DNA of 22,705 nt from a virus (IMGVR_UViG_3300017917_000504:1-22705), one strand, 5' to 3'; positions 5,595 to 21,460 are shown, counted from the stretch's first letter. Notes: a model not told the origin generated them from the letters alone. Translations and numbers: made by a program.

Positions 5595-6374
5595 ATGAAC
5601 ATTATCGTTGTATATCCTGGGCGTTTTCACCCTTTTCACCGCGGACACATGGCTAGCTATGATTGGCTAACTGGTAAGTTTGGCGACGGTGTTTATATCG
5701 CAACAAGTAATGTTCAAAACGAAACTGATAGTCCGTTTAGTTATGCAGACAAAGTTAAAATGATGACTAAGTTAGGTATTCCGGCTGGTCACATTGTGCA
5801 AACTAAAAATCCATATCAAGTTAAAGAAATAACCGACAGCTTGACTCCAGAAGAAAAAGCCACTACAGCATTGGTGTTTGCAGTTAGTGCCAAAGATGCA
5901 GAACGTTTTAGTTTCAAACCTAAAAAGAATGGTGAGCCTAGTTATTTGCAACCGTTGCCAGAAAATCTCAAACAACTTAAACCAATGAATAAAGCAGGTT
6001 ATGTAGTTATAACTCCTACTGTTAATTTTAAGGTTAAAGGTGCAGATGCAAACAGTGCCAGTCAAATACGCAAATTGTACCAAGACGGCAACGATCAAGA
6101 TCGTTCAAATATTATTACTGATTTGTATGGCGAGCCCGATGCAGCTATTAAAGAAATATTTGATCAAAAACTAGGAACAACACCAGAAACAATCATACAA
6201 TACGGAACACCTATTATTGACGGTGGTGAAGCAAAAGTAAATGTTATGAGAGAAAGCCGAGTTAACCGTACTAAAGTTCGCGAACTACAAGAATGTATCC
6301 AAGCAGTTAGAAAACAAATTGAAGAAGCAAAACGTATCAACGCTGACTACATCGACGAAAAAAATAGTCGCTAG
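5595..6374 (+). CDS. HxGH-family nucleotidyltransferase (NMNAT/cytidylyltransferase-like)
   Basis: 259 residues. The N-terminus reads MNIIVVYPGRFHPFHRGH, the strand-loop-helix with an HxGH motif at residues 15-18 that defines the nucleotidylyl/cytidylyltransferase superfamily. The second signature, SASQIR, corresponds to the ISSTxxR motif that binds the nucleotide phosphates. The family joins an NTP to a phosphorylated partner such as NMN, phosphopantetheine or a phospho-alcohol; the substrate cannot be read from the sequence, though NMN adenylyltransferase is a reasonable candidate. A C-terminal extension of about 75 residues is helical and charged (RVNRTKVRELQECIQAVRKQ), probably coiled-coil. 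A TAAATA box sits directly before the ATG. Superfamily is secure; substrate is open. Confidence 0.8.
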   Translation: MNIIVVYPGRFHPFHRGHMASYDWLTGKFGDGVYIATSNVQNETDSPFSYADKVKMMTKLGIPAGHIVQTKNPYQVKEITDSLTPEEKATTALVFAVSAKDAERFSFKPKKNGEPSYLQPLPENLKQLKPMNKAGYVVITPTVNFKVKGADANSASQIRKLYQDGNDQDRSNIITDLYGEPDAAIKEIFDQKLGTTPETIIQYGTPIIDGGEAKVNVMRESRVNRTKVRELQECIQAVRKQIEEAKRINADYIDEKNSR

Positions 6375-7442: not shown

Positions 7443-10400
7443 ATGAATATTCAAGAATTAGACGCCTATAACCTTGACGATGCTGTCAAATTTAATGATC
7501 GGTTAAACCCTGCACTGTGGAACCGCACGGAACATTTAAAGCCTGAAATTAAAGCACAATTACTATTGATTGCTGAAGATTTCCGCGAAAGTTTAGGCAT
7601 TAAAGATCTAGATTTAAAAGATATTACTATTAGTGGTTCTAACGCCGCTTACACTTACACACCTAATTCAGATATTGATTTACACCTAGTTGTTGATCAA
7701 CCCGAAGATCCTATCTACCGTGAATTGTTTGATGCTAAAAAAGCACAGTATAATGATACACACGATATTAAAATTAAAGGATTTGATGTTGAAGTATATG
7801 TAGAAGCTGCAGATAAACCTCCAATCAGTCAAGGCACTTATAGTTTATTACAGGACAAGTGGGTGCAGGTTCCTAAGCGTGTTAAAGCCGACGTAGATGA
7901 TACTGCTACTCGCAATAAGTTTGAAACTATAGGACATGCCGTTGAACGTGCGATTAAGACTGGCAGTCGTGAAAAAATGGATCGCATGGCTCGCAAGATC
8001 AAGCGTATGCGTCAAACAGGATTAGATCAACACGGCGAGTTTGGTCCTGAAAATCTAGCGTTTAAAATGTTGCGTAGTCAGGGTGTATTGAAACAATTAC
8101 ATGATGCACGTGTTGAAGCAAAGAATAAAGAGCTTAGTTTAAAAGAACGTCGTCGACCACACTCAGTATTTACTTATGGTTTTAAACATGAGTCAGCGGT
8201 TGACGAAGGTAGTGCAGGTGTTAAACCAGTCACATTAACTCCGGACGGCCTAAGTCCAGATACTGTAATGATTGTTAGTGATGTTAATGATCAATCTTCT
8301 GATGAAGAAATATTAAAAGATTTTATTGACTTTTGCTCTAAGGAATTGAAACTCGAGCAAATGCCTACAATTAAGTTAAAGCGCGATCCACAATGGCCTG
8401 TGGTGCATAAAACATTTGGTCGTTATACAAATGATAAAAACTTATTAGAAGTTGCTTGGGGACAACGTCACATCATGGACGTACTTCGCACAGTAGCACA
8501 CGAACTAACACATAAACATCAACATGAACGTGATGGTGATGCTATGGGTGCTGATGCCGGCGAAACGGGTAGCAAGTGGGAAAATGAAGCCAATGCTCGC
8601 GCTGGTATTTTGATGCGTGATTATGCTAGACTACATCCTGATTACTTTGCTGTAGGTCAAGTAGAAGAATTGCACGGCGACGAAGTTAACGAGTCGGCTT
8701 CTGGATACATTCCAACAAAAAAGCAAGCTAAAGATCCACGTTTCGTAATGGCCCTGACTAAAGATGTACAACCGGGGGCGGTGGGTAAAGAAGCCAACAA
8801 GTTAAAACTTAAAACTAACAGCCAAGGCAAACCACAGCAGTTACGTGCTGATGGCTTGTTTGAGGATTTAATGCTTGAATATAAAAAGTTTAAACAAGCA
8901 AATGAAGACTACAGCCCAGATACTCCTCCGGGACCTGAATCTAAACCTACCATGCCTAAAGGTACTGTGCGTGTAGACGTTAGTGACATGTACGATTGGT
9001 ACAAACTAGGTAAGAATATTAGCAATCTTAAAGCGGCAGATAAGTCACAATTCGGCAAGGGACCTCCTAGCACTATAGTTTCGTTTGGTGACGAAGATAC
9101 TGAACACAAGTATATTAAAGATTTAGAAAACTTAGGTTTAACTACTACAGACATTGATCCTTTAGATCCTAAAAAACCTAAGGGTATTTCACGTCAGAAA
9201 GTAGATCCTACTTACAATGTAAATGAAAGCGAAGAGCTCGACGAAGTGCGTATGGCTCCTAGTAACCTGCGTCAGTTTGCTGACAGCGAGGCAGCCGAAG
9301 GCATACAAGCGGGCTTTGAAGCAGAGTTGATCTTCCGCGACACAGAAGGTGACAGTGATTCGGATGACTTAGAACCTGACTATGATTACGATGAGCGTTG
9401 CCGCAGTCTAAGTCAAGTTGTTGATTTCTTCAGTAACGACGACTGGGGCTATGGACTTAGCCGTCGTGAGCGTGATGAGTTGTCCGAAAAGTTAGACGAA
9501 GCCTACTACGAGTGGCATGACGAACAAATGTATGAAGCATGGCAGGACGAGCGTGATGAAAAAGTTCGCGACCTACTGTTAGAAGAACAGCCTTGGACAG
9601 AGCGTTTGCATGCTATGTTAGTAGATGGTATGGAGTTGTCCGATGAAGAAGCTGAAAAGATTATTGAGTTAGGCGAAGCTCGCAAAAATGGCAAAGGCAA
9701 GCCCGGTGAAGAATACACCGAAGAAGAGCTAGAAATGCTGGCCAAGTATAGTGAAGCTGCCTCGGATGCTGACTTAATCTTAGACGAAGAAGTTGAAAGC
9801 AGTATTGCTGCAGAAGATAAGATTTATGATAGTGCGTTAGATCTTTTCCGCGACGACTTTTATATTGGCGATGATTCTGGATTTTTTAGTGATGTTGGTT
9901 GGCGCTGGATGTCAGATATTGCTGATGAATTTAATTTAAGCTGGCCATATTATACCGGTGGTAGCAACGGTGGCGATCGTGATTGGGATAGTATTGCTGA
10001 CAGTTTAAGCGATGCTATTGATATGCCAGTGCGTGTAAGTTCTGGCTATCACCAAATGACACGCAAGCCGGGCGTATGGATTGTAGAACCTGATTCTAGT
10101 TTAGAGCCCGATGAGCGCGAAGACGTAGGTTTGGAAATTGTAAGTCCTCCTATGCCACTTAAACAAGCACTGGAAAAACTACAGCAAGTAACCGACTGGG
10201 CCAACGGTCCTGGCAATGCTTATACTAACGATTCAACTGGCCTGCACATGGGTGTAAGTATTCCCTACAAAGGCGGCAATGTTGATTACCTAAAACTAAT
10301 CATGTTCCTAGGTGATGAGTATGTGTTACAGCAGTTTGGTCGTGAGTCAAACACTTACACTAAAGCCGCCATGAAGGAAATACGCAGTCGTGCTGGATCA

Positions 10401-11753
10401 GAGCGTAATGCTACGGCTGTATTGGAATTGTTAAGAAACAACTTAGTAGAGTTAGCCGAGCGTGAATTGGCCCGATCCACCGGCGAAGGCAAATACACAT
10501 CAGCACACAAACAAGGCAAGTATATTGAGTTCCGATCAGCCGGGGGTGACTGGTTAGCTGAAGATAACGCTGATCCAGAAAAGTTACCAGCCACTATGAT
10601 GCGTTATGCTTATGCTATGTATCTAGCAGGTCGTCCAGACTTAGAGCGTAAAGAATACGCTAAGAAGTTATACAAGTTAGTTGCTAACGGTACAGATGAT
10701 TCAACTATGGCACTGTTTAGTCAGTTTGCTACAGGTATGATTGACAAAGATCAACTTAAGAAGCAGTGGGCTGAAAAGACTTTAAGTAAAGAAGAACCTC
10801 GAGCTGTAGGCAAAGACAACTGGGTAGTTGTAGATAAAAGAACTCGACAACCCATGCCTGGTGGCACATACAACGGTTATACTCGTAGCGAAGCACTGGA
10901 GAGAGCCGAAGAAAAATTTGGTGAAATGGGTTGGCGCTTTGACTTAGAACCGCAAAATACTGGTCGCTGGGAAGTTTATCGTGATGATCAAGGTCAAGAA
11001 GAAACACTGGAAATTATCGATGCCAAGGGTAAAGCCGAAGCTGTGGATAAGGCCTATGAAAAATACACCGGAGTTATTCCATTCAAGGTCCGTGCTTATC
11101 ACGGTGAAGATGATCCGGGTCCAAAGAAAGAACCCTCACGTCGTGCTAAGTTGGCTAAACAGATTATTCAAAAGCCAGCTAAACCAAAAGATTATAACTA
11201 TGAAATTGTAAATCTTGGGGATGTAAATCTAGGAGTGGTGGATAAATTTTATGCTGTTGATAAAAAAGATGCTGACGCAACTTTTGATAAATGGTTGCAA
11301 ATGAAAGGTCTACCAAACGATACTAACAATTATGGTTACAGACCACGAAAACAACAAACAGCACAACAGACAGGTAATGCTGATCCAGCGGCATCTAGTG
11401 ATTGGGAAGCTGTATGGCGCCCAACCGGTCGTGTAGTAGATACCCTGGCGCATGCTGATGCTGAACAAGCAACAACCTGGCGCCAAATGGTTATTCGCCA
11501 ACACGGATTCGAAGACAACGGCGATCTTATTATTCGTCGTGCTGGTGAGCAAACTCCTAATGTAGCACAAAACTTCTCAGCACAAACACCGCCCGACGCT
11601 ACACAACAAGTAGGATCCTGGAGCATATATGATGTGACCCTGAACCGCGAAATTGCCAGAATGGACAATGTGTCTTGGCAACAGGCTACAGATCGTGCTG
11701 AAGAACTTGAACGCGGCACAGGACATAACATGAGTGTTAGAGGTTTGAATTAA
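7443..11753 (+). CDS. Giant modular protein: NTase, zincin, amidoligase-like domains and repeats
   Basis: 1436 residues. Residues 20-130 form a polymerase-beta-type nucleotidyltransferase: GSN at 65-67, DID at 77-79 and a third acidic pair DVE at 115-117. A zinc-protease-like domain follows with HELTH at 353-357 and WENEAN at about 379-384. Residues 415-600 hold linker modules (SGYIP, EDYSP, DVSDMYDWYKLG). Residues 620-1080 resemble the glutamine-synthetase-fold amidoligase family: GFEAE at 624-628, GLEIVSPP at 896-903, GLH at 933-935 and EFR at 1029-1031. The tail carries about five 40-70-residue repeats starting at W1127, W1176, Y1253, W1321 and W1393. Possible prohead-protease sites (VDE|G 255, VNE|S 417 and 595) fall between modules. 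This fits a 'polyvalent' protein injected with DNA. The ATG at 7443 is preferred because it follows a late-type box; an upstream TTG frame extension lies in the terminator. Confidence 0.75.
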   Translation: MNIQELDAYNLDDAVKFNDRLNPALWNRTEHLKPEIKAQLLLIAEDFRESLGIKDLDLKDITISGSNAAYTYTPNSDIDLHLVVDQPEDPIYRELFDAKKAQYNDTHDIKIKGFDVEVYVEAADKPPISQGTYSLLQDKWVQVPKRVKADVDDTATRNKFETIGHAVERAIKTGSREKMDRMARKIKRMRQTGLDQHGEFGPENLAFKMLRSQGVLKQLHDARVEAKNKELSLKERRRPHSVFTYGFKHESAVDEGSAGVKPVTLTPDGLSPDTVMIVSDVNDQSSDEEILKDFIDFCSKELKLEQMPTIKLKRDPQWPVVHKTFGRYTNDKNLLEVAWGQRHIMDVLRTVAHELTHKHQHERDGDAMGADAGETGSKWENEANARAGILMRDYARLHPDYFAVGQVEELHGDEVNESASGYIPTKKQAKDPRFVMALTKDVQPGAVGKEANKLKLKTNSQGKPQQLRADGLFEDLMLEYKKFKQANEDYSPDTPPGPESKPTMPKGTVRVDVSDMYDWYKLGKNISNLKAADKSQFGKGPPSTIVSFGDEDTEHKYIKDLENLGLTTTDIDPLDPKKPKGISRQKVDPTYNVNESEELDEVRMAPSNLRQFADSEAAEGIQAGFEAELIFRDTEGDSDSDDLEPDYDYDERCRSLSQVVDFFSNDDWGYGLSRRERDELSEKLDEAYYEWHDEQMYEAWQDERDEKVRDLLLEEQPWTERLHAMLVDGMELSDEEAEKIIELGEARKNGKGKPGEEYTEEELEMLAKYSEAASDADLILDEEVESSIAAEDKIYDSALDLFRDDFYIGDDSGFFSDVGWRWMSDIADEFNLSWPYYTGGSNGGDRDWDSIADSLSDAIDMPVRVSSGYHQMTRKPGVWIVEPDSSLEPDEREDVGLEIVSPPMPLKQALEKLQQVTDWANGPGNAYTNDSTGLHMGVSIPYKGGNVDYLKLIMFLGDEYVLQQFGRESNTYTKAAMKEIRSRAGSERNATAVLELLRNNLVELAERELARSTGEGKYTSAHKQGKYIEFRSAGGDWLAEDNADPEKLPATMMRYAYAMYLAGRPDLERKEYAKKLYKLVANGTDDSTMALFSQFATGMIDKDQLKKQWAEKTLSKEEPRAVGKDNWVVVDKRTRQPMPGGTYNGYTRSEALERAEEKFGEMGWRFDLEPQNTGRWEVYRDDQGQEETLEIIDAKGKAEAVDKAYEKYTGVIPFKVRAYHGEDDPGPKKEPSRRAKLAKQIIQKPAKPKDYNYEIVNLGDVNLGVVDKFYAVDKKDADATFDKWLQMKGLPNDTNNYGYRPRKQQTAQQTGNADPAASSDWEAVWRPTGRVVDTLAHADAEQATTWRQMVIRQHGFEDNGDLIIRRAGEQTPNVAQNFSAQTPPDATQQVGSWSIYDVTLNREIARMDNVSWQQATDRAEELERGTGHNMSVRGLN

Positions 11754-11754
11754 C

Positions 11755-13560
11755 ATGCGAGCTCAGGAGTTTATTGTTGAAGCTGAACAGCGTCAAATGG
11801 AGCCTGAGTTATACGAAGAGGTTCCTAACTCAATTTTAAAAAAAGCTGTACAAGCGGCACTACCCGGAGTTAAACTACAATTTAGAAACACTCCTGAAGG
11901 TTACTTGAATGTGACCAATGATGATGATTCTGTTCGTCTCGACATTGGCATGAGCATCTACGACAGCGAGTTAAGTTTTAACATTGAAAATGCTTATCTA
12001 ACCAAGCATGCCAAGGGCGGTGCAATGACCGCAATTATTGCCAATGCCTTTGCACTAGCAGAAAAGAAATATGGAATACCTCGTGCTCGTTCCTTGAATA
12101 TAGAACAGGATCGCAGTCACGGTGTATGGCAACATATTGCCAACAAACTTGGTTTAGAATATTCAGCACATCAAATTGGCGAGTCAGCAGAATCAATACA
12201 AGAATCTGTACATGCTTACCATGGCACATTTCAACCTACCTTAACTCGGTTTAATGCACTCAGTCACTTTGGCACACTACAAGCCGCAGAAGATCGCTTG
12301 AAAGAAAAAGCTCGCAGAGAGAAAATCAAAGATCCTGGACGTGTTTATGAAGTTGTACTAGATATTAAAAATCCGTTCATAGCCAAAGACTTTGCTGGCG
12401 TACACAGCCCTACACATTTTGTGTTTGATCTTAAAAGCAAAAAGTTAATCAGCCAAGAAGAATTATCAGCAATAAACCAGCACATGGGAACACCAAAGCA
12501 AGCCAAATTACTAATTAAAAAATTGCGTGAACTAGGATTTGACAGTATTGCTTACAAAAACAAATACGAAGATAAAGGTAGCACAAGTTATGTTATCTTA
12601 GATCCTAGTCAAGTAGTAAGTGTTCGTCCTTTAAAACAAAAGGAAGCAGTCACTGAAGCCAGCATACCTGATGAGATAGAAGATTTCCTGTACGACTTAA
12701 CGCCAGAAGATGTAGGTGTAGAAGAGTTTGGCCCTTATCGTGTGCATTACGAAGGCTTTACAGATGATTGCCAAAGTAGTAGTGACTACTGTGTTAATCC
12801 TGAAGCAGTTTATCAACAAGTGTTTGCTGATCATATTGCTAGAGAAGGCGGTCGCAGGCCTATAGAACAAAACTTTACCGGCGATGAAGATTATCCAATA
12901 CTGTACAGTATCTTTAAGATTCCACGTCAAGTAAAAGAACGTGCAGAACGTTCTAGAGATGCTATTGAAAACATAGTGACTATGGGCAACATAGATGATT
13001 ACTTTGTTAGATCTACCGATATTGATAAAATAGGATACAGTGCTCATCAAGACTTTGGTCGTGCACCAGATATTGGAGACCCTGACTATGATCCCGATGC
13101 ACTGCCAAAAAAGAAAGGTCGCCCAGCACTGTGGTTCTATCCTGCTAGTTATTATCTTAAACATAAAGATTTGTTTGCTGGTGGTCGTCCTTATATCTGG
13201 TTAGTTAAACGTCGCCCTAATGCGTATCTACAGCCTACACAAGGAGCGACTCGACCTGAAGCTCCTAAAGGCATGGTCCGTGCTGGCCTGATGCATAACG
13301 AATCTGGTGTGCCGGTTGCTGTATTTTTCCGTCCCGAATTTGATGTTGTAGATCGTTGGCATGAACCTAAACAAGTAAAAGAAAACTTTGCTGATGGTAA
13401 AGTCAAAGGCAAAAGTCGTCCTGGACGTGTTAAACGTGCTGGTGCAAGTTGTAAAGGCTCAGTATCTAGTTTGCGAGCTAAAGCTAAGAAGGCAGGCGGT
13501 GAGCGTGGTAAAATGTATCACTGGTGTGCAAATATGAAGTCGGGTCGTAGCAAGAAATAA
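11755..13560 (+). CDS. Putative injected internal head protein with ADP-ribosyltransferase-like domain
   Basis: 601 residues. The N-terminus MRAQEFIVEA closely resembles the T4 internal-protein capsid-targeting peptide (MKTYQEFIAEA), including an I-x-E|A cleavage site after residue 9. Residues 20-140 may be a degenerate acetyltransferase-like fold (GGAMTAIIANAFALAEKKYG, then VWQHIANKLGLEY). Residues 152-293 resemble ADP-ribosyltransferases of phage polyvalent proteins: AYHGT at 154-158, SHFGT at 170-174, a strand VYEVVLDIKNPF and YVILDPSQVVSV. It would use NAD+ to modify a host target. Sites IQE|S (150) and VTE|A (301) flank this domain. The last 50 residues are basic with C566, H589, W590 and C591. 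The start is one base after the previous stop (TAACATG), so coupling is likely. ART catalytic residues cannot be fixed without a structure. Confidence 0.7.
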   Translation: MRAQEFIVEAEQRQMEPELYEEVPNSILKKAVQAALPGVKLQFRNTPEGYLNVTNDDDSVRLDIGMSIYDSELSFNIENAYLTKHAKGGAMTAIIANAFALAEKKYGIPRARSLNIEQDRSHGVWQHIANKLGLEYSAHQIGESAESIQESVHAYHGTFQPTLTRFNALSHFGTLQAAEDRLKEKARREKIKDPGRVYEVVLDIKNPFIAKDFAGVHSPTHFVFDLKSKKLISQEELSAINQHMGTPKQAKLLIKKLRELGFDSIAYKNKYEDKGSTSYVILDPSQVVSVRPLKQKEAVTEASIPDEIEDFLYDLTPEDVGVEEFGPYRVHYEGFTDDCQSSSDYCVNPEAVYQQVFADHIAREGGRRPIEQNFTGDEDYPILYSIFKIPRQVKERAERSRDAIENIVTMGNIDDYFVRSTDIDKIGYSAHQDFGRAPDIGDPDYDPDALPKKKGRPALWFYPASYYLKHKDLFAGGRPYIWLVKRRPNAYLQPTQGATRPEAPKGMVRAGLMHNESGVPVAVFFRPEFDVVDRWHEPKQVKENFADGKVKGKSRPGRVKRAGASCKGSVSSLRAKAKKAGGERGKMYHWCANMKSGRSKK

Positions 13561-13570
13561 GTAACTTCGT

Positions 13571-14146
13571 ATGTTGCTTATTGATCACATTTACAAAAAA
13601 CAAAGAACATTAGATCAACTACCCAAGCGTGGTAAGCGTATCCTTATAGGTGAAGAACGCGATTGGCTAGGACAGTACGTAGATCGCTTTCCTGGAGGAT
13701 TTGAAATTTGGCGCTGGCGTTCATCAATGGCAATAACCTATAACATATTCAATCCTATAACCCGTAAAGTAGAGTTAAGTATATCAGGCACACGCTATCT
13801 TACCAACGACTGGGCCTTTAAAATCTACGGTGTATATGCTCGCCCTAAGAATCAAGTTCGTGCCATAGACGTGTATGAATACTTGATACGTCGATTAAAC
13901 TTAGTACTAGTGTCAGATCAATACCAAAGTCCAGGTGGGCAACGTATTTGGCGTGAGCTAAAACGTAAAAGTAGTTTAAATGTTTATGGCTATGATTTCC
14001 GCACACATACGGCATACGAAACTCGAGGCAAAAACTTTGATTTACTTTATGTGACTACAAAAGAACTAGAAAATGCTAAACCTGGTACAATTAAAGATCT
14101 TAAAGGTTGGGCTAGCAACGTGAGATTAGTAGCTAGATTGGCTTAA
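13571..14146 (+). CDS. Conserved phage protein, unknown function
   Basis: 191 residues, basic, without cysteines, signal peptide or membrane segments. It reads like one folded domain: FEIWRWRSSMAITYNIFN, then VELSISGTRYLTNDWAFKIY, and the motif LVSDQYQSPGGQRIWRELKR, which I remember as a recurring element of uncharacterised proteins in environmental T4-like phages. The end (FDLLYVTTKELENA) looks like a terminal helix. It lies ten bases after the ART-like gene, in the same cassette, and its stop overlaps the promoter-like box for the next gene. It has no capsid-targeting peptide at the N-terminus. Function unknown. Confidence 0.6.
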   Translation: MLLIDHIYKKQRTLDQLPKRGKRILIGEERDWLGQYVDRFPGGFEIWRWRSSMAITYNIFNPITRKVELSISGTRYLTNDWAFKIYGVYARPKNQVRAIDVYEYLIRRLNLVLVSDQYQSPGGQRIWRELKRKSSLNVYGYDFRTHTAYETRGKNFDLLYVTTKELENAKPGTIKDLKGWASNVRLVARLA

Positions 14147-14149
14147 ATA
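14142..14149 (+). promoter_or_regulatory. T4-late-like promoter box
   Basis: CTTAAATA overlapping the upstream stop codon and ending 5 bases before the ATG at 14155. No Shine-Dalgarno. An ATG at 14151 is in another frame. Confidence 0.45.
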
Positions 14150-14154
14150 CATGT

Positions 14155-14343
14155 ATGAGAGCTCAAGAATTTAGCAGCGGTATTAAAACATATACTGCTA
14201 GTATCAAATTACGCACACCCGGCACTGACCCGGTTATTGATACTCTAGTCTATGCTCGTACTCCTTATCTAGCTCGTTTATTATTGCAACGTCAATACGG
14301 CCGCACTTGCATAGTATCAAATCTTAGAGAAATCACAGACTAA
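14155..14343 (+). CDS. Small protein with capsid-targeting-like N-terminus
   Basis: 62 residues. It starts MRAQEF, identical to the first six residues of the ART-like protein at 11755, although the codons differ at three silent positions. No LxE-type cleavage site follows at once (SSGIKTYTAS). The body is a small alpha-beta unit: TASIKLRTPGTDPVIDTLVY, then ARLLLQRQYG. The shared peptide suggests packaging inside the head, like T4 internal proteins. A TAAATA box sits directly before the ATG and another directly after the stop. Role inside the virion unknown. Confidence 0.6.
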   Translation: MRAQEFSSGIKTYTASIKLRTPGTDPVIDTLVYARTPYLARLLLQRQYGRTCIVSNLREITD

Positions 14344-14351
14344 TTTAAACC

Positions 14352-14359
14352 GCTAAATA
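14352..14359 (+). promoter_or_regulatory. T4-late-like promoter box
   Basis: GCTAAATA ending 4 bases before the ATG at 14364, in the 20-base gap between two small genes. No Shine-Dalgarno is present. Confidence 0.45.
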
Positions 14360-14363
14360 CAGC

Positions 14364-14663
14364 ATGACCAAGCAATTTGTCCGTGTTGTATGTAATGTAG
14401 CCTGTAAATGGGAAGGACTTCCTCCTATCTATCGAGTATATGTCAACGATGAATTGTTTGCAGAAAGAACATGGATCTGGCCCGATGAGTGTTATTTGCG
14501 AGAGGAGTTGCAAATTAATGCCGAGCCGGGGGAATATCGCATACATTACGAATTAGTTCCTCCAAATTTAGCAGAATTATTAATATCTATTCCTGTAGTA
14601 GATTACGGTACTGCTACGGTCACTAAAGATGGAATACTAAGGATTGAAAATGCGACTGTTTGA
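14364..14663 (+). CDS. Small conserved phage protein, predicted beta fold
   Basis: 99 residues. The centre reads YRVYVNDELFAERTWIWPDE, then YLREELQINAEPGEYRIHYE, a strand-rich pattern of a small beta domain that I recall from uncharacterised proteins of environmental T4-like phages. There are two early cysteines (VCNVACKW). No signal peptide or membrane segment. Its last codons overlap the next gene by 14 bases. The position between two genes with capsid-targeting-like N-termini suggests a virion-linked role, but the protein itself lacks such a peptide. Confidence 0.55.
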   Translation: MTKQFVRVVCNVACKWEGLPPIYRVYVNDELFAERTWIWPDECYLREELQINAEPGEYRIHYELVPPNLAELLISIPVVDYGTATVTKDGILRIENATV

Positions 14664-14853
14664 AATTGTTAATTTACGTGAAACTGCTAGTTCTGGCGCT
14701 ACTAGTTCAGGTAGTGTAGCTACTGTAGCGGCACCGTTAGGCGGCATGATTAGCAGAAATGGTGGTAGTTTCTTTTCTGGCACTAAATACACTAGTGACG
14801 ATGCAACGCCTAATACGCCAGCAGAGTATAAAAAATATAAACGGAAGAAATAA
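14650..14853 (+). CDS. Small Gly/Ser-rich protein, possible internal head peptide
   Basis: 67 residues starting at ATG 14650, chosen because TAAGGA (14638-14643) is a proper Shine-Dalgarno; an in-frame TTG at 14644 is too close to it. The N-terminus MRLFEIVNLRETASSG has an L-x-E site after residue 11, followed by T and a low-complexity Gly/Ser/Ala stretch (GATSSGSVATVAAPLGG), then a Lys-rich tail (YKKYKRKK). The short hydrophobic-acidic leader, LxE site and basic tail fit a packaged, DNA-associated internal peptide. It overlaps the upstream gene by 14 bases and the Dps gene by one base (TAATG), so it is coupled to both. Confidence 0.55.
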   Translation: MRLFEIVNLRETASSGATSSGSVATVAAPLGGMISRNGGSFFSGTKYTSDDATPNTPAEYKKYKRKK

Positions 14854-15293
14854 TGTTAGCTGATTTATTAAAGACCTATTTGGCCAGTACATTTTCGTAC
14901 TACTTAAAAGCCCATATGTTCCATTGGAACGTGGAGGGTCCTGACTTCGGTGAATTACATGGTTTCTTCTCTGAAATTTATGAAGATGCCTTTTCAGCCG
15001 TAGATCCTATTGCTGAATATATTCGCACCACAGAAGAATATGCTCCTGGAAGCCTAAGTCGCTTCCAAGAATTAAGTCAAATACAGGACCAAACTAAGGT
15101 TCCTCGTGCCCGTTTAATGTTAGAAGAATTACTCGCAGATACACAAACTATGAAAGACTTGAGTAAACAAGTCTTTGATGCTAGTACAGAAGAAGGTCGT
15201 GATGATGTTGCTAATTTTGCAGCCGACCGACTAGCACAGCATGGCAAGTATATGTGGCAGTTAAAGAGTTATTTAAAAGAAGCAAGGGCATGA
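14853..15293 (+). CDS. dps: Dps-like miniferritin
   Basis: 146 residues of the Dps/ferritin-like superfamily. H24-W-N in AHMFHWNVEG, H36, D51 and E55 reproduce exactly the spacing of the E. coli Dps ferroxidase ligands (H51, H63, D78, E82), so the iron-oxidising site looks intact. Dps forms a 12-mer shell that oxidises Fe(II) with peroxide, stores iron and protects DNA. This copy is shorter than E. coli Dps (167) because it lacks the long Lys-rich N-terminal tail used for DNA binding. Its ATG overlaps the stop of the preceding Gly/Ser-rich protein, inside the putative packaged-protein cassette. It could protect phage DNA from peroxide or take iron from the host. Family call secure; role inferred. 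Confidence 0.88.
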   Translation: MLADLLKTYLASTFSYYLKAHMFHWNVEGPDFGELHGFFSEIYEDAFSAVDPIAEYIRTTEEYAPGSLSRFQELSQIQDQTKVPRARLMLEELLADTQTMKDLSKQVFDASTEEGRDDVANFAADRLAQHGKYMWQLKSYLKEARA

Positions 15294-15296
15294 TCC

Positions 15297-16004
15297 GTGA
15301 GTTACGACCATAACGATATCTACAATATAGTTGAAAGACTGGCTATCCTAGAAGGCCGTATTACTCCCGCCACTGTTAAACATGGCCTAAACAAACAACA
15401 AAAGTCAGTGCCACAATTGCCTGCACTTTTCAAACCCAAAGATATTAGCCCGGTGTTAGGTAGTAAGAAAGATCCAGAACATCCTATGCATGGCTACATG
15501 GTTGGCGACAGTGTAGAAAACGACAAAGAACCTGTTGAAGAAGCTGTAGCAACAGAGGACGTATTAGAAAAAGTTAAAAAATCATTTGCTGATTATTTGA
15601 GTAATGTAGCAGACGAAATTAAACAAGATACAGACTTAAAAGATAAGAAAAAAGAAGATAGTGATCTTAAGAAAAAAGACAAAATTGATCGTGATTTAAT
15701 TGCTAAAGTTGTTAAACAAGAATTAGATGAAGATCCTATCGAAGGCGACGACTTAGGAGATATGGCTCCTACACCAGTACAAAATCCTGTAATGGCAGAA
15801 TCGCATCCAGTTAAAACTATTACTAATGAGTGCGGCTTGTGGGAAATACACGGCAACGAACCAACAGGATTTGAAATCCGACATGGTAATCGTGCAATGC
15901 GTTCAAAATTTAAATCAATTGATGAAGCTGTTATGGCTTTAGAAATGTTTGCGGCCCGTCGTAAGGCGCAAGACGAATCACAGGATTACATAGAAGAAGC
16001 CTAA
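15297..16004 (+). CDS. Putative head-associated protein with LxE-type N-terminal site
   Basis: 235 residues from a GTG at 15297, preceded by AAGGG (15284-15288); the ATG at 15290 is out of frame and ends after seven codons. The N-terminus is helical and contains AILEGRI, an I-x-E|G site at residues 17-20. Next comes a basic, proline-containing segment (VKHGLNKQQKSVPQLPALFK, then KDISPVLGSKKDPEHP). I remember closely similar segments in uncharacterised structural-type proteins of marine T4-like phages. Residues 90-145 are a highly charged coiled-coil (KDKKKEDSDLKKKD). The end has a small domain (GLWEIHGNEPTGFEIRHGNR). A scaffold/core or internal head protein would fit. Function unproven. Confidence 0.55.
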   Translation: MSYDHNDIYNIVERLAILEGRITPATVKHGLNKQQKSVPQLPALFKPKDISPVLGSKKDPEHPMHGYMVGDSVENDKEPVEEAVATEDVLEKVKKSFADYLSNVADEIKQDTDLKDKKKEDSDLKKKDKIDRDLIAKVVKQELDEDPIEGDDLGDMAPTPVQNPVMAESHPVKTITNECGLWEIHGNEPTGFEIRHGNRAMRSKFKSIDEAVMALEMFAARRKAQDESQDYIEEA

Positions 16005-16014
16005 GGAAAAAGAA

Positions 16015-18633
16015 ATGAATTTGTTAGACCTATACGAAGGCCGCGAGCCACATCAACAAGCGATAGATAAGTTAGAACAACGTCGCATTGCAGACTTAGA
16101 AGCACGTATGGACGATTGCGCTCGACGTGGTGATGTAGCAGGTTTCCGTAAAGCCAAAGAAGAACGCGATAGTTATCATACAATCAAAACCAACGAAGCT
16201 GAATTAGATGAAAAGTTAAAAGGTCTTCCTAGTAAGAAACTAGGTTCAGCACGTGACTTAGGCAAGAGTGTTAAAAAGTTTAGAGCACAACGTGGCCTAG
16301 ATGAAGGCGAAATGAAACGTGCCATGGAAAAAGATGCTGAGCGTATGAGTCGTGAAGCATTTTGCAAAAAGTATGGCAACGAAGATTGGGTTTGCGAGTT
16401 CTGGGATAATGTAAACGGTCCTATGGATGAATCTGGTATTGGTCACGATATTGCCGACAAGAAAGAAAAGATTGCACGTGCAACTCCGCAGAGTAAAGCC
16501 GGCGCTGTAGCAAGCACTGTTAAAAATGCTGCTAAGTGGTTGGCTGGTAAAGGTGGTCCTGGTAAAGAAGGCCCAACTTACGAAGCGGCTCAAAAAAAAA
16601 ATTCTGAAAAAGTAAACGAGTATATTTCTGTAGCTTCTGATAAGAATTTTAAAGAAGCAGAACCATACAAAAATTACAAAATCTATGTACGTAAACAGCC
16701 ATTTGGTAACACTGGCCTTTACACAGCACACACAGAAATCGATCGCAAAGGCTTCATGGAAAAGGGCACTTCACCCGAAGAAGCTGTCCAAGCAATACGC
16801 GACAAGATTGACTTTGTATTAAACGCACAAAAGAAAGTTACAGGCTCGAGTACTATTGACTTCAATGTTAAATTTGCCACAGACTTGTTAGCTGATCCTA
16901 AGCAAACTTTCTACGCTAAACTAGAAAATGTCAACGGTGAACCTAAGTTAGTTATTGCTGGCGATACAGTTGCCAATGATCCTGAGTTGTTGGCCGCAGG
17001 TGACTTTAAACGTAGTGCTGTGCGTAATCAAGTAGATGATCAGGGCCGTGCCACACCATTACCGGGTATTCCGTTGACTGCTAAGAGTTTGCGTGCTGGT
17101 GAATGGATTGCTAATGGTCGTTACACTATCGGTAAAGAAACCCAAGACCGTGATGGTAATCGCGTGTTTGATTTAACTTATCATAGTACAGCACACACCA
17201 AGAGCGATAAACTACGCCTTAATCAGCCAGCATTTACATTAGGCACAACTCGTGACGTTGACGAAGATAAGGCACGTGATTTAACCGCGGCTGTGATGCT
17301 TAAAAAAGCACATGCGGCATTTCCTAGTGCAAAAGATGCCACAGAAGCATTAGCATTGTGGATTGCTGACAAAGAGCAACGCGATGTTAATCGTTTAGAA
17401 AAAGAAAACGAGCAAGAAGAAGAAATGATTGCTCGTATTATAGATCAATTAAAATCAAAAGAAGTCGACGAAGGTTGGAGCGATGCTATAGTTGCTCGTA
17501 GAACTGGTCGTCCACGCACACCATATTCAATCTATATCAAAGGCCGGAAGTGGAAAGACTTTGAAAACGAAGATCATGCCGAGAATGTAGCAAATAAATT
17601 ACGTGCTAAATTTAAAGCCGAAGGCAAAGATCCTAGTGTTATTACTATTGCTCCTACCGACTATGATAAAGGTATGGACGAAGCTGCCAATCCAGCACAG
17701 CAGGCCGCCATTGCTATTGCTAAGAAAAAAGAACAAGGCGTAACAGAGGACACAGGTTCATGGATTGTGTATGATCCTGAGACCAAGCAGATCAAAAAAC
17801 GTTTTAAGACACACACTGCCGGCAAGAGTTATGCCCAAACACACAAGTTAGGCTTTGCCAGTAGTGAATATTACTTTGACAATATTAAAACGGCTGTAAC
17901 AGCAGAAGGTATGACAGATTTTCAAAAGCGTCGCCAGCGTGAGCGTGACATAGATGCTGGTCGGCCTGTAGCACGTCAACGCCCAAGTAAGCAGACTGAC
18001 TACCAGAAGCGTCGTGCTCAGGATCGTAAGGACATGGAGTTAGGCGAGGAAAAGACACGCTTGGATCCTAAGTGCTGGAAGGGTAAGAAGATTGGTACGC
18101 CTAAGACTAAGATGAAAGGCGGAGTTCGTGTTAATAACTGTGTGCCTGCTGAATCCGTTGAAGAGGAAGCCAAAAAAGGTCTTTACTACTATGTAAACAA
18201 GCGTAAGAAAGCTGGCACAAGTAGAGATAAAGATGATCCTCGCGCACCTTCGGCACAAGACTGGAAAAATGCAGCCAAGACTGCTAAAAAAGAATCAGTC
18301 GAAGAAGAGTGGAGTGAAAAATACAAACGCAGTATCGATTGCTCACATCCTAAAGGCTTTTCACAAAAAGCTCACTGTGCTGGTCGTAAGAAGAACGAAG
18401 GTATGTTTAGCACATTAGGTGAAGACAACGAAGCTCGCGATGCAGTTGAATCAGCAATTATACGTCGTATCTTAGTTGCACATAAAGACTTATTACAAAA
18501 GTTTGGTCCACAAAAAGTTATGGATGCAGCTTCTGCTATTGCTGACGATCATGCAGATGTAGAAGAAATTGGTACTAGTGATGTTAGTGCTTACGTTCAT
18601 GAAGTCGAACGCTACTTAGCAATGAATCACTAA
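16015..18633 (+). CDS. Large multi-module protein, candidate packaged polyprotein
   Basis: 872 residues, very charged, behind a good Shine-Dalgarno (AAGGA). MNLLDLYEGRE has a perfect L-x-E|G site after residue 8. It then looks like beads on a string: a Lys/Arg-rich helical region (10-135), SGIGHDIADKKEKIARATPQ (from 140), beta-alpha modules starting near Y221, Y504 and W583, AANPAQQAAIAIAKKK (from 557), a basic DFQKRRQRERDID region, a C687-W688 to C709 peptide, a C776 to C788 peptide, and a helical end (796-872). Junctions often show hydrophobic-x-E|[SGA]: MDE|S 139, VDE|G 486, MDE|A 556; weaker TAE|G 631, PAE|S 713, KNE|G 795. No enzyme motif is recognised. Cleavage in the prohead would yield many small basic peptides. 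Inference from pattern only. Confidence 0.6.
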   Translation: MNLLDLYEGREPHQQAIDKLEQRRIADLEARMDDCARRGDVAGFRKAKEERDSYHTIKTNEAELDEKLKGLPSKKLGSARDLGKSVKKFRAQRGLDEGEMKRAMEKDAERMSREAFCKKYGNEDWVCEFWDNVNGPMDESGIGHDIADKKEKIARATPQSKAGAVASTVKNAAKWLAGKGGPGKEGPTYEAAQKKNSEKVNEYISVASDKNFKEAEPYKNYKIYVRKQPFGNTGLYTAHTEIDRKGFMEKGTSPEEAVQAIRDKIDFVLNAQKKVTGSSTIDFNVKFATDLLADPKQTFYAKLENVNGEPKLVIAGDTVANDPELLAAGDFKRSAVRNQVDDQGRATPLPGIPLTAKSLRAGEWIANGRYTIGKETQDRDGNRVFDLTYHSTAHTKSDKLRLNQPAFTLGTTRDVDEDKARDLTAAVMLKKAHAAFPSAKDATEALALWIADKEQRDVNRLEKENEQEEEMIARIIDQLKSKEVDEGWSDAIVARRTGRPRTPYSIYIKGRKWKDFENEDHAENVANKLRAKFKAEGKDPSVITIAPTDYDKGMDEAANPAQQAAIAIAKKKEQGVTEDTGSWIVYDPETKQIKKRFKTHTAGKSYAQTHKLGFASSEYYFDNIKTAVTAEGMTDFQKRRQRERDIDAGRPVARQRPSKQTDYQKRRAQDRKDMELGEEKTRLDPKCWKGKKIGTPKTKMKGGVRVNNCVPAESVEEEAKKGLYYYVNKRKKAGTSRDKDDPRAPSAQDWKNAAKTAKKESVEEEWSEKYKRSIDCSHPKGFSQKAHCAGRKKNEGMFSTLGEDNEARDAVESAIIRRILVAHKDLLQKFGPQKVMDAASAIADDHADVEEIGTSDVSAYVHEVERYLAMNH

Positions 18634-18634
18634 C

Positions 18635-19342
18635 ATGAAGGTTAGCGACTTTCGCATTGTCAATCATGATAAGTTAGATGCTATACTTGTGCGTCTATGC
18701 GAGTTAGTTATTGCGGGACAAAAGAAAGATCCTACTAAGTATGGCATGGTTGCCGCCGCAGTATTAGATACAGACAATAACTGTGTGGCTGCATTAAATT
18801 ATCGTCAAGGCGACAAAGATGTTCATGGCGAGCGTGCTGCCATCGAAGCATACAATAAACGCTTTGGCGAAATACCAGAAGGCTCAATTATTTTAACTAC
18901 TTGTAGCCCTTGCACAGAACCCATGCCAGAACGTGTAGGCGAAAGTTGTAAAGATTTAATTTCTAATAGCCCAGTTCATAAAGTTTATGCTGGATATAGA
19001 GATCCTAGTCAACAAACCGAAGCCGGTGATAAAACTTATCACTTACAAATAACACGCAACAAAAAGATACAAGCTCTATGCCAAGCATTTGCTGATACAT
19101 GGCTCGATGACGAACAGTTAAATGAATTAACATTTATGGGTAGTCAATGCACTAAGGATTGTTCGGGTCACCGTGCTGGATATGCATGGTCTAAAGCACG
19201 TGGTGGGCAAAACGCTAACAGTCCATTTAGTCCAAGTTTTAATAAAGGCTCTGCAATTGCTACAAAAGAAATACAAACAGCTAAACCACAACCTAAACCC
19301 GCAACAAATCCACTAAGACCTATTGCAGGACCACGAGTATGA
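18635..19342 (+). CDS. Cytidine-deaminase-fold protein with Cys-rich C-terminal module
   Basis: 235 residues. The deaminase core has HGE at 64-66 (His zinc ligand, Glu proton carrier) and ILTTCSPCTEPMPERVGESC with Cys at 90, 93 and 105. The zinc pair may be C90/C93 (CxxC) or, as in RibD-like deaminases with a spaced second Cys, C93/C105. The family removes an amino group from cytosine, deoxycytidylate or related rings. After residue 165 comes a separate module, CTKDCSGHRAGYAWSKARGG, then a Ser/Asn-rich tail, not part of the deaminase fold. The start is one base after the upstream stop (TAACATG), as at 11755. The substrate may be a nucleotide, or a nucleic-acid base if the protein is packaged. 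Confidence 0.7.
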   Translation: MKVSDFRIVNHDKLDAILVRLCELVIAGQKKDPTKYGMVAAAVLDTDNNCVAALNYRQGDKDVHGERAAIEAYNKRFGEIPEGSIILTTCSPCTEPMPERVGESCKDLISNSPVHKVYAGYRDPSQQTEAGDKTYHLQITRNKKIQALCQAFADTWLDDEQLNELTFMGSQCTKDCSGHRAGYAWSKARGGQNANSPFSPSFNKGSAIATKEIQTAKPQPKPATNPLRPIAGPRV

Positions 19343-19425
19343 ACGAAGAATATCAATATCCTTACCCAGTATATCCCGAGGACGACGGAAGTGATTGCCC
19401 AAGAAATCCTTACGCACCTGTCTGA
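19339..19425 (+). CDS. Possible 28-residue Tyr/Pro/Asp-rich peptide
   Basis: An ATG that overlaps the deaminase stop (ATGA) opens a 28-codon frame, MNEEYQYPYPVYPEDDGSDC and eight more residues, ending at TGA 19423-19425. It overlaps the first 35 bases of the methyltransferase-like gene in another frame. Composition (Tyr, Pro, Asp) is unlike random AT-rich sequence, and the ATGA junction supports coupled translation. It could be a real peptide, or a translational relay bringing ribosomes to the GTG at 19391. Confidence 0.35.
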   Translation: MNEEYQYPYPVYPEDDGSDCPRNPYAPV

Positions 19426-19972
19426 GTCCAGCGGCTACACACTCGAAGGTAGCTTTACCTCTGACCTACTTGCCAGCAAGATTTGGTTGTTAACAGAACT
19501 TGCTCGTATCGCACCTAGCGTTGGAACTGTATATGTATTAGGATCTTGGTACGGTAATCTTGCTGTTATCAATCAACTAGATCCTACAATCAAATACAAA
19601 AAATTAATCAATGTAGAAACCGATAAAAAGTTTTTACATGCTAGTCAACGCATACACAATCATTTGGGTATAGACAACACGGAATACATGCTCAAAGATG
19701 CTAATGACTTAGACTATAGACAATTAGGCCTGGATGGCGTAGTTATTAACACAAGCCTAACCGACATGCAAGGACAAGCATGGTTTGACAATATACCCGA
19801 AGGCACACTAGTTGTTATGCAAAGTCGAGATCATGATCCTGGCAATGCAGCACACAGCACACAAGATATTATAGATCGTTTTCCTTTATCTGAAATCATT
19901 TACGATGGAGAATTAGATTTAGAAGATCCCGAAACCGAATATACTCGCTATATGGTTATTGGAATCAAATAG
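19391..19972 (+). CDS. SAM-dependent methyltransferase-like protein
   Basis: 193 residues from a GTG at 19391 with GAGG (19378-19381) nine bases upstream. After a helical start the sequence has a class I Rossmann pattern: VYVLGSWYGNLAVI as glycine-containing motif I, LINVETD as the acidic end of strand 2, LKDANDLDY as motif III and LDGVVINTSLTDM as motif IV, then IPEGTLVVMQSRDHDPGN. The family transfers a methyl group from S-adenosylmethionine; the target is unknown and no nucleic-acid recognition domain is present. The N-terminus MIAQEILTHLSESSG shows L-x-E|S after residue 12 and loosely resembles MRAQEF, so it may be packaged too. Last gene of the cassette. Confidence 0.6.
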   Translation: MIAQEILTHLSESSGYTLEGSFTSDLLASKIWLLTELARIAPSVGTVYVLGSWYGNLAVINQLDPTIKYKKLINVETDKKFLHASQRIHNHLGIDNTEYMLKDANDLDYRQLGLDGVVINTSLTDMQGQAWFDNIPEGTLVVMQSRDHDPGNAAHSTQDIIDRFPLSEIIYDGELDLEDPETEYTRYMVIGIK

Positions 19973-20386: not shown

Positions 20387-21460
20387 GTGCAATTTAAATT
20401 AACTGATCTATCAATTAAAAGTTATCAGTTATTTGATTCTAAACAGTATCAAGGAAAATACTGTCTAAGTCCTTTTTGCATGATACAAATAGATACTGGT
20501 GGCCATGTGCGTTTGTGCGGTTGTGGTGCTTGGATGCCTATTACTATTGGAAATATTTTAGAAACTCCATTAGTTGAAATATTAGCCAACCCACTAGCAC
20601 AGTCCGTGCGCCAAAGTATTATTGATGGGACTTATCAATATTGCAATGAAAAGGTATGTGGGGTTATTCAAAACGACGGATTGAATACCATAGAAAGTGT
20701 TCCGCCTAATATCAAAACTCTGCTAGAAGATTCATCAAAGTTTCAGATTCCATACGAAATTAGTATTCACGGAGATCCTACTTGCAATCTTAGTTGCCCT
20801 AGTTGTAGGACTCATGTGATTAAAGTTAGCGACGAAGATATTGAAAAGCAAAATAAAATTGGAGAATTAATTTTCAAGAATTTGCTTGGATCTGCTAACG
20901 AACAGACCATGCATGTAATAATCAGCGGCATTGGTGAGATATTTGCAAGTCCTATGTTATTAGAATTTATGAATAGAATAACACTGGACAAATATCCTAA
21001 TATCACCTTTACTATTGCTACTAACGGTTTGCTTTGCGAAAAACGCTGGGATAGAATTCAGCATTTAGAACCAGCAATAAAACGAGTTATAGTTAGTATA
21101 GACGCAACTTGTGCTGAGACTTATGAAAAGATAAGGCGTGGCGGCGAGTGGAGTGTGCTATTACAGAACATGGAATTTCTAAAAAATAAAAAACAGTTAA
21201 ACAATATAAAATTACATACCAGGATGATTGTACAAAACGGTAATTACAAAGAGATTCTAAAGTTCTATGATTTCTCTAAAGAGTTTGATACAGATCTAAT
21301 TGAGTATTCTCGAGTGACCGATTGGGGCACATGGTCTAAAGCTGAGTTTGCTCAAGAAGATGTTTTTAATCCACAACATCCTAATTATGAGGTTGCAAAA
21401 GACCTTATAAATCAAGTAAAATTAAAAACAGATACTTGGTTTGAAGGTAATTTTAGTTAG
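20387..21460 (+). CDS. Radical SAM protein with N-terminal SPASM-like Cys-rich region
   Basis: 357 residues from a GTG directly after the preceding stop. The radical SAM motif CNLSCPSC (C133, C137, C140; CX3CX2C) binds the [4Fe-4S] cluster that cleaves S-adenosylmethionine to a 5'-deoxyadenosyl radical. Support for the TIM-barrel core: VIISGIGEIFASP (the GGE-type strand), FTIATNGLL and VIVSIDATCAETYEKIR. The first 95 residues carry six cysteines (26, 31, 44, 46, 86, 91) with IGNILETPLVEILANP, a SPASM-like auxiliary-cluster pattern, which usually lies at the C-terminus. The substrate is unknown; SPASM enzymes often modify peptides or proteins. It sits between DsbA-like and DNA polymerase genes, apparently transcribed with the former. 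Confidence 0.82.
   Translation: MQFKLTDLSIKSYQLFDSKQYQGKYCLSPFCMIQIDTGGHVRLCGCGAWMPITIGNILETPLVEILANPLAQSVRQSIIDGTYQYCNEKVCGVIQNDGLNTIESVPPNIKTLLEDSSKFQIPYEISIHGDPTCNLSCPSCRTHVIKVSDEDIEKQNKIGELIFKNLLGSANEQTMHVIISGIGEIFASPMLLEFMNRITLDKYPNITFTIATNGLLCEKRWDRIQHLEPAIKRVIVSIDATCAETYEKIRRGGEWSVLLQNMEFLKNKKQLNNIKLHTRMIVQNGNYKEILKFYDFSKEFDTDLIEYSRVTDWGTWSKAEFAQEDVFNPQHPNYEVAKDLINQVKLKTDTWFEGNFS

Follow-up and report, generated by a model that had tools for sequence, protein, structure and literature searches.

Leader-like and internal phi-x-E motifs suggest T4-style capsid targeting and prohead cleavage of a cassette of polyvalent phage effectors

Based on sequence comparison of a 22,705-base fragment (the window) of virus record IMGVR_UViG_3300017917_000504 with its relatives, we found that a cassette of co-directional, tightly spaced genes shares a short N-terminal leader (M-R-x-x-E-F-[I/V/L]-x-E) with many genes of related phages, and that the end of this leader recurs exactly at the joints between modules of long multidomain proteins. 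Leader and joint both end in phi-x-E, that is a hydrophobic residue (P3), any residue (P2) and glutamate (P1); an arrow marks the predicted cut, and genes are named by their start coordinates in the window. From these patterns it is likely that the cassette encodes polyvalent effectors that are targeted to the capsid in the manner of phage T4, with cleavage of the joints by the prohead protease. Targeting by the leader and its removal are the firmer part and likely in our judgement, and cutting at the internal joints is probable to a somewhat lesser degree.

The cassette would thus be cargo for the phage head. The leader would act as a T4 capsid-targeting sequence (CTS), binding the prohead scaffold core and bringing the protein inside, and would then be removed after its glutamate by a gp21-type prohead protease. 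At the phi-x-E↓ joints of long proteins the protease would free separate modules within the capsid for ejection with the DNA, including ADP-ribosyltransferase (ART), metallopeptidase-like and small basic Cys-containing modules. Leader end and joint would be one interchangeable element, so that a module following phi-x-E could be shifted to a gene's start or inserted into a chain. The gp21 of T4 cleaves behind L/I-x-E, and for capsid targeting the ten N-terminal residues of IPIII are enough (PMC9026906).

An earlier note on this DNA had proposed a packaged, capsid-targeted effector set from five N-terminal sites, and all five were present: IVE↓A (E9, gene 11755), LRE↓T (E11, 14650), ILE↓G (E19, 15297), LYE↓G (E8, 16015) and LSE↓S (E12, 19391). 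A short propeptide ending in L/I-x-E was found in 11755, 14650 and 19391 and their orthologs, and in genes 15297 and 16015 the site is there, but the start is not that of a typical CTS. Within the window the motif [IL]xE[AGST] occurred in residues 2-21 at 7 of 23 gene starts and after 8 of 122 internal Met positions (Fisher p = 0.003); two of the seven starts, ClpA-like 1598 and DsbA-like 20126, lie outside the cassette. The five sites are only modestly unusual in the window alone, and the case is settled by the homologs. In scans of IMG/VR we obtained 95 related loci, of which 12 were syntenic with the cassette (13 syntenic loci counting the window). In these the same genes, and many unrelated inserted ones, start with MRAQEFVTE, MRANEFIVE, MRASEFIAE, MRSKEFITE and the like. 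A fuller leader pattern, ^M[RKI]x(1-4)[ED][FLIY][ILVFA]xE, written after the syntenic starts had been seen, matched 9% of gene starts in the 13 syntenic loci vs 0.08% of the internal Mets there, an approximately 100-fold excess. The remaining loci (3.7% of starts vs 0.18% of internal Mets) are the fairer test because the pattern was derived from the syntenic starts, yet those phages are also related. In large genomes leaders were sparse and clustered; in the 349-kb record G001, syntenic with the window, 4 of 412 open reading frames (ORFs) had one, two of them belonging to the cassette and two being neighbours at 134 kb.

Among 93 canonical leaders, in which P1 is fixed as E by the pattern itself, P3 was I, V or L (one F) and P2 was any of 13 residues. 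Identical leaders were written with different codons (GAA/GAG, TTT/TTC, AGA/CGA/CGT). Because P3 is conserved, P2 varied and the codons vary synonymously, we regard the leader as a protein-level signal. The head-to-tail order of the genes and their frequent exchange could suggest instead that the leader serves at the DNA level, in translation start or recombination, with no role in the protein; this is contradicted by the synonymous codons and by the return of the P3/P1 pattern at internal joints, where there is no start codon, and we find it scarcely credible. Alignment of homologous N-termini, as the earlier note had recommended, showed that the position of phi-x-E is kept: 12 of 14 aligned members of gene 15297 have ILE, LIE, IEE, IQE or LNE there. 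For gene 19391 we compared 27 distinct homologous junctions, in all of which P1 was E and P3 was L, V or I, with eight different residues at P2; its domain is N-terminal in some homologs and follows phi-x-E inside longer proteins in others.

The larger feature, which the earlier note had missed, is formed by these internal junctions. Domains that stand behind a leader in one phage were found inside long proteins in another, directly after phi-x-E and with unrelated sequence upstream. As BLAST could extend into the leader in a first junction test, we repeated it with the leaders stripped, searched the remainders against all proteins and read the residue homologous to P1 in internal matches. At 165 non-redundant internal junctions, phi-x-E stood at the exact P1 position in 65%; among the other offsets between -14 and +14, none had it in more than 6%. 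A few of these cases are leaders behind a miscalled upstream start and the alignment starts are fuzzy; neither produces a spike at offset zero. In the KSRPGR module, P1 was E in 57 of 57 non-redundant internal copies and P3 was hydrophobic in 91% (background 27%), with P2 and P4-P16 unconserved. Similarly, the WSxKYK module had E at P1 in 20 of 21 copies and a hydrophobic P3 in 95%.

The KSRPGR module (13384-13557) itself had at least 590 matches in IMG/VR, no Pfam or PHROGs family and, searched within gene 11755, no match in cultured phages. It was also present on two metagenome-assembled contigs (L167, L168) labelled Pelagibacter and Neomarinimicrobiota. Against Pfam the small modules gave nothing significant, and only modules C/D matched PHROGs.

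The internal motifs could also be structural caps, with leaders that target the head and are cut and with long proteins that enter the head and the host in one piece, as the virion RNA polymerase of N4 does. Packaging without cleavage is known for large polyvalent proteins (PMC5512222), and our junction set is dominated by two modules. However, without these two commonest modules the spike persists (45% at the exact position vs at most 11% at other offsets, n = 92). Many unrelated modules have a common three-residue signal, while P2 and the whole sequence upstream vary freely, and the signal coincides with the leader end of that module elsewhere; moreover, a twin-arginine (Tat) signal lies within the chain of L050 right behind LEE↓. 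We therefore consider injection of uncut chains unlikely, and cleavage at the joints the better reading.

The earlier note had named a gp21-type protease as a requirement. None was found in the window, where Peptidase_S78 was also absent, nor was Peptidase_S77, the T4 gp21 family, found in the shorter related fragments; it scored above the cut-off in G001, G010, G011 and G013, which are all four of the searched records longer than 190 kb. In G001 the protease, at 84690-85328, lies in a head operon of T4 order, namely portal, two small core genes, protease, scaffold and capsid (names from position and T4 similarity). The major capsid proteins of related phages have LKE↓N, LME↓N and LSE↓Q near the known T4 gp23 site. 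A different enzyme was considered, as gene 7443 has an HExxH stretch and autoproteolysis by such metallopeptidase-like domains has been proposed for polyvalent proteins (PMC5512222). Still, the motif is the published gp21 specificity, L/I-x-E (PMC9026906), it is shared by the capsid proteins of these phages, and a gp21-type protease is encoded in related genomes, so that processing by the domain of 7443 in place of the prohead protease is very improbable.

The sequence past the cut of gene 14650 (NATAGATGSGSIATV in L079) resembles that past the predicted cut of the capsid protein (LME↓NATAGATQAGNVATL in G011 and LKE↓NASAGSTSAGNIATL in G001), and this small protein may imitate the arm of the major capsid protein. 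A stretch like the mature N-terminal arm of the relatives' capsid protein (G001 86455, G011 257146) is seen in 14650-14853 and, in another form, in ORF160 of cyanophage S-CREM2.

Cultured relatives supply evidence from virions. S-CREM2 126042-126722, matched by the first domain of gene 7443, is ORF156, detected in virions with 6 unique peptides by published mass spectrometry. The neighbouring cytidylyltransferase ORF154, of the family annotated for gene 5595 and with the leader MKNFSSFLTE↓, and the module protein ORF160, with predicted internal joints LSE↓A, LEE↓K and ISE↓G, were also detected. The earlier note would be refuted by absence from virions; against this stand these virion homologs of the first domain of 7443 and of 5595. 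All four non-lytic enzymes of S-CREM2 virions (SAM hydrolase, APH kinase, cytidylyltransferase and Cas9) have F-phi-x-E leaders. With this relaxed pattern, selected after inspection of the S-CREM2 proteins, leaders were found in 6 of 25 non-structural virion ORFs, including two hypothetical proteins, vs 6 of 158 undetected ORFs (p = 0.002). A leader of the same type, RFASFMAE↓A, is present on ORF12 (OR473000.1 7704-10313), the Cas9-like nuclease described from cyanophage virions. The sole enzyme listed for S-SZBM1 virions, a cytidylyltransferase, begins MRFRQFIIE↓A, and T4-GC190 of the same family was detected in S-SM1 virions (PMC3037559). Neither leaders nor cleavage are mentioned in the S-CREM2 paper, which grants that such virion proteins could be abundant contaminants; this is less likely because the virion enzymes share leaders.

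Several results weigh against capsid targeting and joint cleavage. The cassette was not significantly richer in sites than the other genes of the window (5 of 11 vs 2 of 12, p ~0.15 by hand calculation), and the phi-x-E density was not raised (2.2 in the cassette vs 2.5 per 100 residues in other genes); raw density was rejected as a signal. Both would be expected if the motifs were chance matches of a short pattern, an explanation that is contradicted by the offset profile and by conservation among orthologs and that we hold to be extremely improbable. The family-strict leader pattern matched 0 of the 25 S-CREM2 virion proteins, so that no enrichment was seen without the relaxed pattern with its after-the-fact choice; the strict pattern misses these proteins because cyanophage leaders read MKxFxxFLTE. 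Joints were somewhat looser in cultured cyanophages. In PA5oct, which by its DNA polymerase is the closest of the cultured relatives, there were no leaders among the genes between the cytidylyltransferase homolog and the polymerase, and the corresponding place is filled with other genes. Within the cassette, genes 13571, 14364 and 14853 lack a leader, and the starts of 14155 and 18635 resemble one but lack the cut site. Finally, no T4-type late promoter TATAAATA was found in the window, including upstream of the cassette. The expectation of the earlier note that sites are enriched at these N-termini was left undecided by the window alone and was borne out by the leaders of homologous cassettes, and its packaged effector set is supported by leader recurrence, by the protease in relatives and by virion homologs.

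Additionally, Tat signals were found directly behind predicted cuts, in L017 (MRAQELLVE↓ITRRDFLRGAG), L049/L302 (MRISEITTE↓NNRRNFMKAMG) and L303 (MKISEIISE↓LNRRDFLKKVG). Beyond these positions right after leader cuts they occur within two long chains; in L050 the signal lies at residue 323, between LEE↓M and a GH19 domain, and an internal start at the Met of LEE↓M is also possible there. The signals lie at L017 7950, L049 14101, L302/L303 1501, L050 7086, and G011 28229 and 111824. A cut would move the signal near the N-terminus, the place where Tat signals work. We give roughly even chances to the wider proposal that a mostly uncultivated group of T4-type phages packages polyproteins, that the protease cuts interchangeable effector modules at phi-x-E joints in the capsid, and that the cut sometimes exposes a Tat signal (L017, L049, L303, L050), by which the injected module could be sent to the host periplasm.

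Features of the cassette and of the adjoining gene 5595, with predicted cuts marked by an arrow
Feature	Coordinates	Strand	Basis or remark
Cytidylyltransferase/NMNAT-like gene	5595..6374	+	phrog_395; adjoins cassette; lacks an N-terminal leader in the window
Long polyvalent protein, 1436 aa from ATG 7443	7443..11753	+	Nucleotidyltransferase, HExxH metallopeptidase-like stretch (AHELTHKHQHE), amidoligase
Leader MRAQEFIVE↓, predicted capsid-targeting, predicted cut after E9	11755..11781	+	Leader recurrence in homologs
Polyvalent protein: leader, module, ART-PolyVal, module, KSRPGR module	11755..13560	+	Homologous joints
Basic protein of unknown function, no leader	13571..14146	+	Homologs with leader or after joint (MRAQEFQE↓VALL, xLNE↓VTMV)
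Small basic protein	14155..14343	+	Leader-like start MRAQEFSSG without cut site
Conserved cassette gene, no leader	14364..14663	+	Homolog comparison
67-aa protein, leader MRLFEIVNLRE↓, E11 at 14680-14682	14650..14853	+	Orthologs, capsid-arm likeness
Dps/ferritin-like gene, no leader	14853..15293	+	PF00210, E 6e-21
Acidic protein, ILE↓G, E19 at 15351-15353	15297..16004	+	Site conserved; start not typical capsid-targeting
872-aa chain, about eight modules; LYE↓G, E8 at 16036-16038	16015..18633	+	Homologous joints
Deaminase-domain protein	18635..19342	+	PF00383; leader-like start MKVSDF without cut site
Protein with possible methyltransferase fold; HLSE↓SSGY, E12 at 19424-19426	19391..19972	+	Homologous junctions

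Gene 7443 matched Amidoligase_2 and, weakly, NTP_transf_2 in Pfam; its best supported internal joint is VNE↓SASGYIPT (E417, 8691-8693), a GYIPT joint in homologs. Gene 11755 comprises, behind its leader, a module (11782-12204), ART-PolyVal (12205-12657), a module (12658-13383) and the KSRPGR module, with predicted cuts after E9, E150, E301 and E543. The window's ART-PolyVal copy scored 25 bits, under the Pfam cut-off of 31.2, which homologs in L001 and L005 exceeded (45.9-49.8 bits, in N-terminal position), and the ART-like assignment of the earlier note stands through them. An AlphaFold model of the ART region from the single sequence had a pLDDT (predicted local distance difference test score) of 35 and was not used. 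In gene 16015, joints supported by homologs are VDE↓GWSDA (E486), VTE↓DTGSW (E578) and VEE↓EWSEKYK (E764), further candidates are E678, E717 and E803, and relatives have LAE↓G (twice), LRE↓G or LHE↓G slightly further from the start. Genes 11755 and 16015 had no match in cultured phage genomes. Gene 14650 was counted from its ATG, the longest ORF starting at TTG 14644, and its orthologs begin MRASEFIAE↓N, MRLHEFVDLTE↓N and MRAREFLPE↓N. The Dps-like and deaminase genes bore out their earlier names, and for the methyltransferase-like gene 19391 there was just a sub-threshold match in one homolog. The Dps/ferritin-like gene is retained without a leader in most syntenic cassettes, and its product may act in the infected cell, not in the head.

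The cassette is flanked by gene 6420 (phrog_1574, no PHROGs function given; glycosyltransferase-like by our own reading) on one side and on the other by 20126 (DsbA-like, also our own reading), followed by the DNA polymerase gene 21544, whose product has about 50% identity with its counterparts in PA5oct and Phosso, both jumbo myoviruses. The C-terminus of gene 5595 reads DYIDE↓KNSR, and relatives go on into the WSxKYK module (DYIDE↓KWSQKYK in L023). DnaJ-like (740-1534) and ClpA/B-like (1598-3883) chaperone genes are neighbours of each other upstream of the cassette and are retained in several relatives. Between the DsbA-like gene and the polymerase, 20387-21460 encodes what we read as a radical-SAM-like protein with Cys clusters, found in just three of the fetched relatives. 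PADLOC gave nothing convincing.

In T4, IPI, IPII, IPIII and Alt likewise have a short N-terminal leader that ends in phi-x-E and is cut by gp21. Related genomes of the present family encode a gp21-type protease, a constant leader precedes hypervariable genes as in T4, and the cassette has an ART, as T4 packages the ADP-ribosyltransferase Alt. T4 ipI starts MKTFKEF, a likeness of pattern and not of demonstrated homology. T4 packages a few small single proteins, whereas here we see many unrelated enzymes and long multidomain chains, in which the signal for cutting recurs at the internal joints. Polyvalent proteins were described by Iyer et al. 2017 (PMC5512222, in the sections used here) as having several unlike domains per chain, including ART-PolyVal, and injection with the DNA, in the earliest phase of infection, was proposed. 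Unlike domains in one chain were also found in 7443 (a weak nucleotidyltransferase and an amidoligase) and 11755 (ART and three other modules). Those sections propose autoproteolysis by metallopeptidase domains and describe no common leader or prohead-protease sites at joints. Virion proteins of T4-like cyanophages (T4-GC119/GC190 proteins and enzymes of S-CREM2, S-SM1 and S-SZBM1) have homologous modules or domains with leaders MKxFxxFLTE or MRFRQFIIE, and the cyanophage papers list them without remark on leaders or cut sites. By description, not by sequence, the system resembles giant phages of the SPN3US type, in which many head proteins are matured by the prohead protease gp245 and ejected with the genome (PMC10052503). 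Literature on cyanophage capsid targeting and prohead-protease polyproteins, within a coverage that leaves subscription journals and preprints outside, contained nothing describing such a system.

If this reading is true, a short sequence rule would let one read directly from the genomes of T4-type phages, uncultivated ones included, which proteins they inject. It would also account for the unrelated enzymes, even Cas9, in cyanophage virions. Joining T4 capsid targeting with polyvalent effectors in this way suggests that maturation of the phage head may double as the processing of polyproteins.

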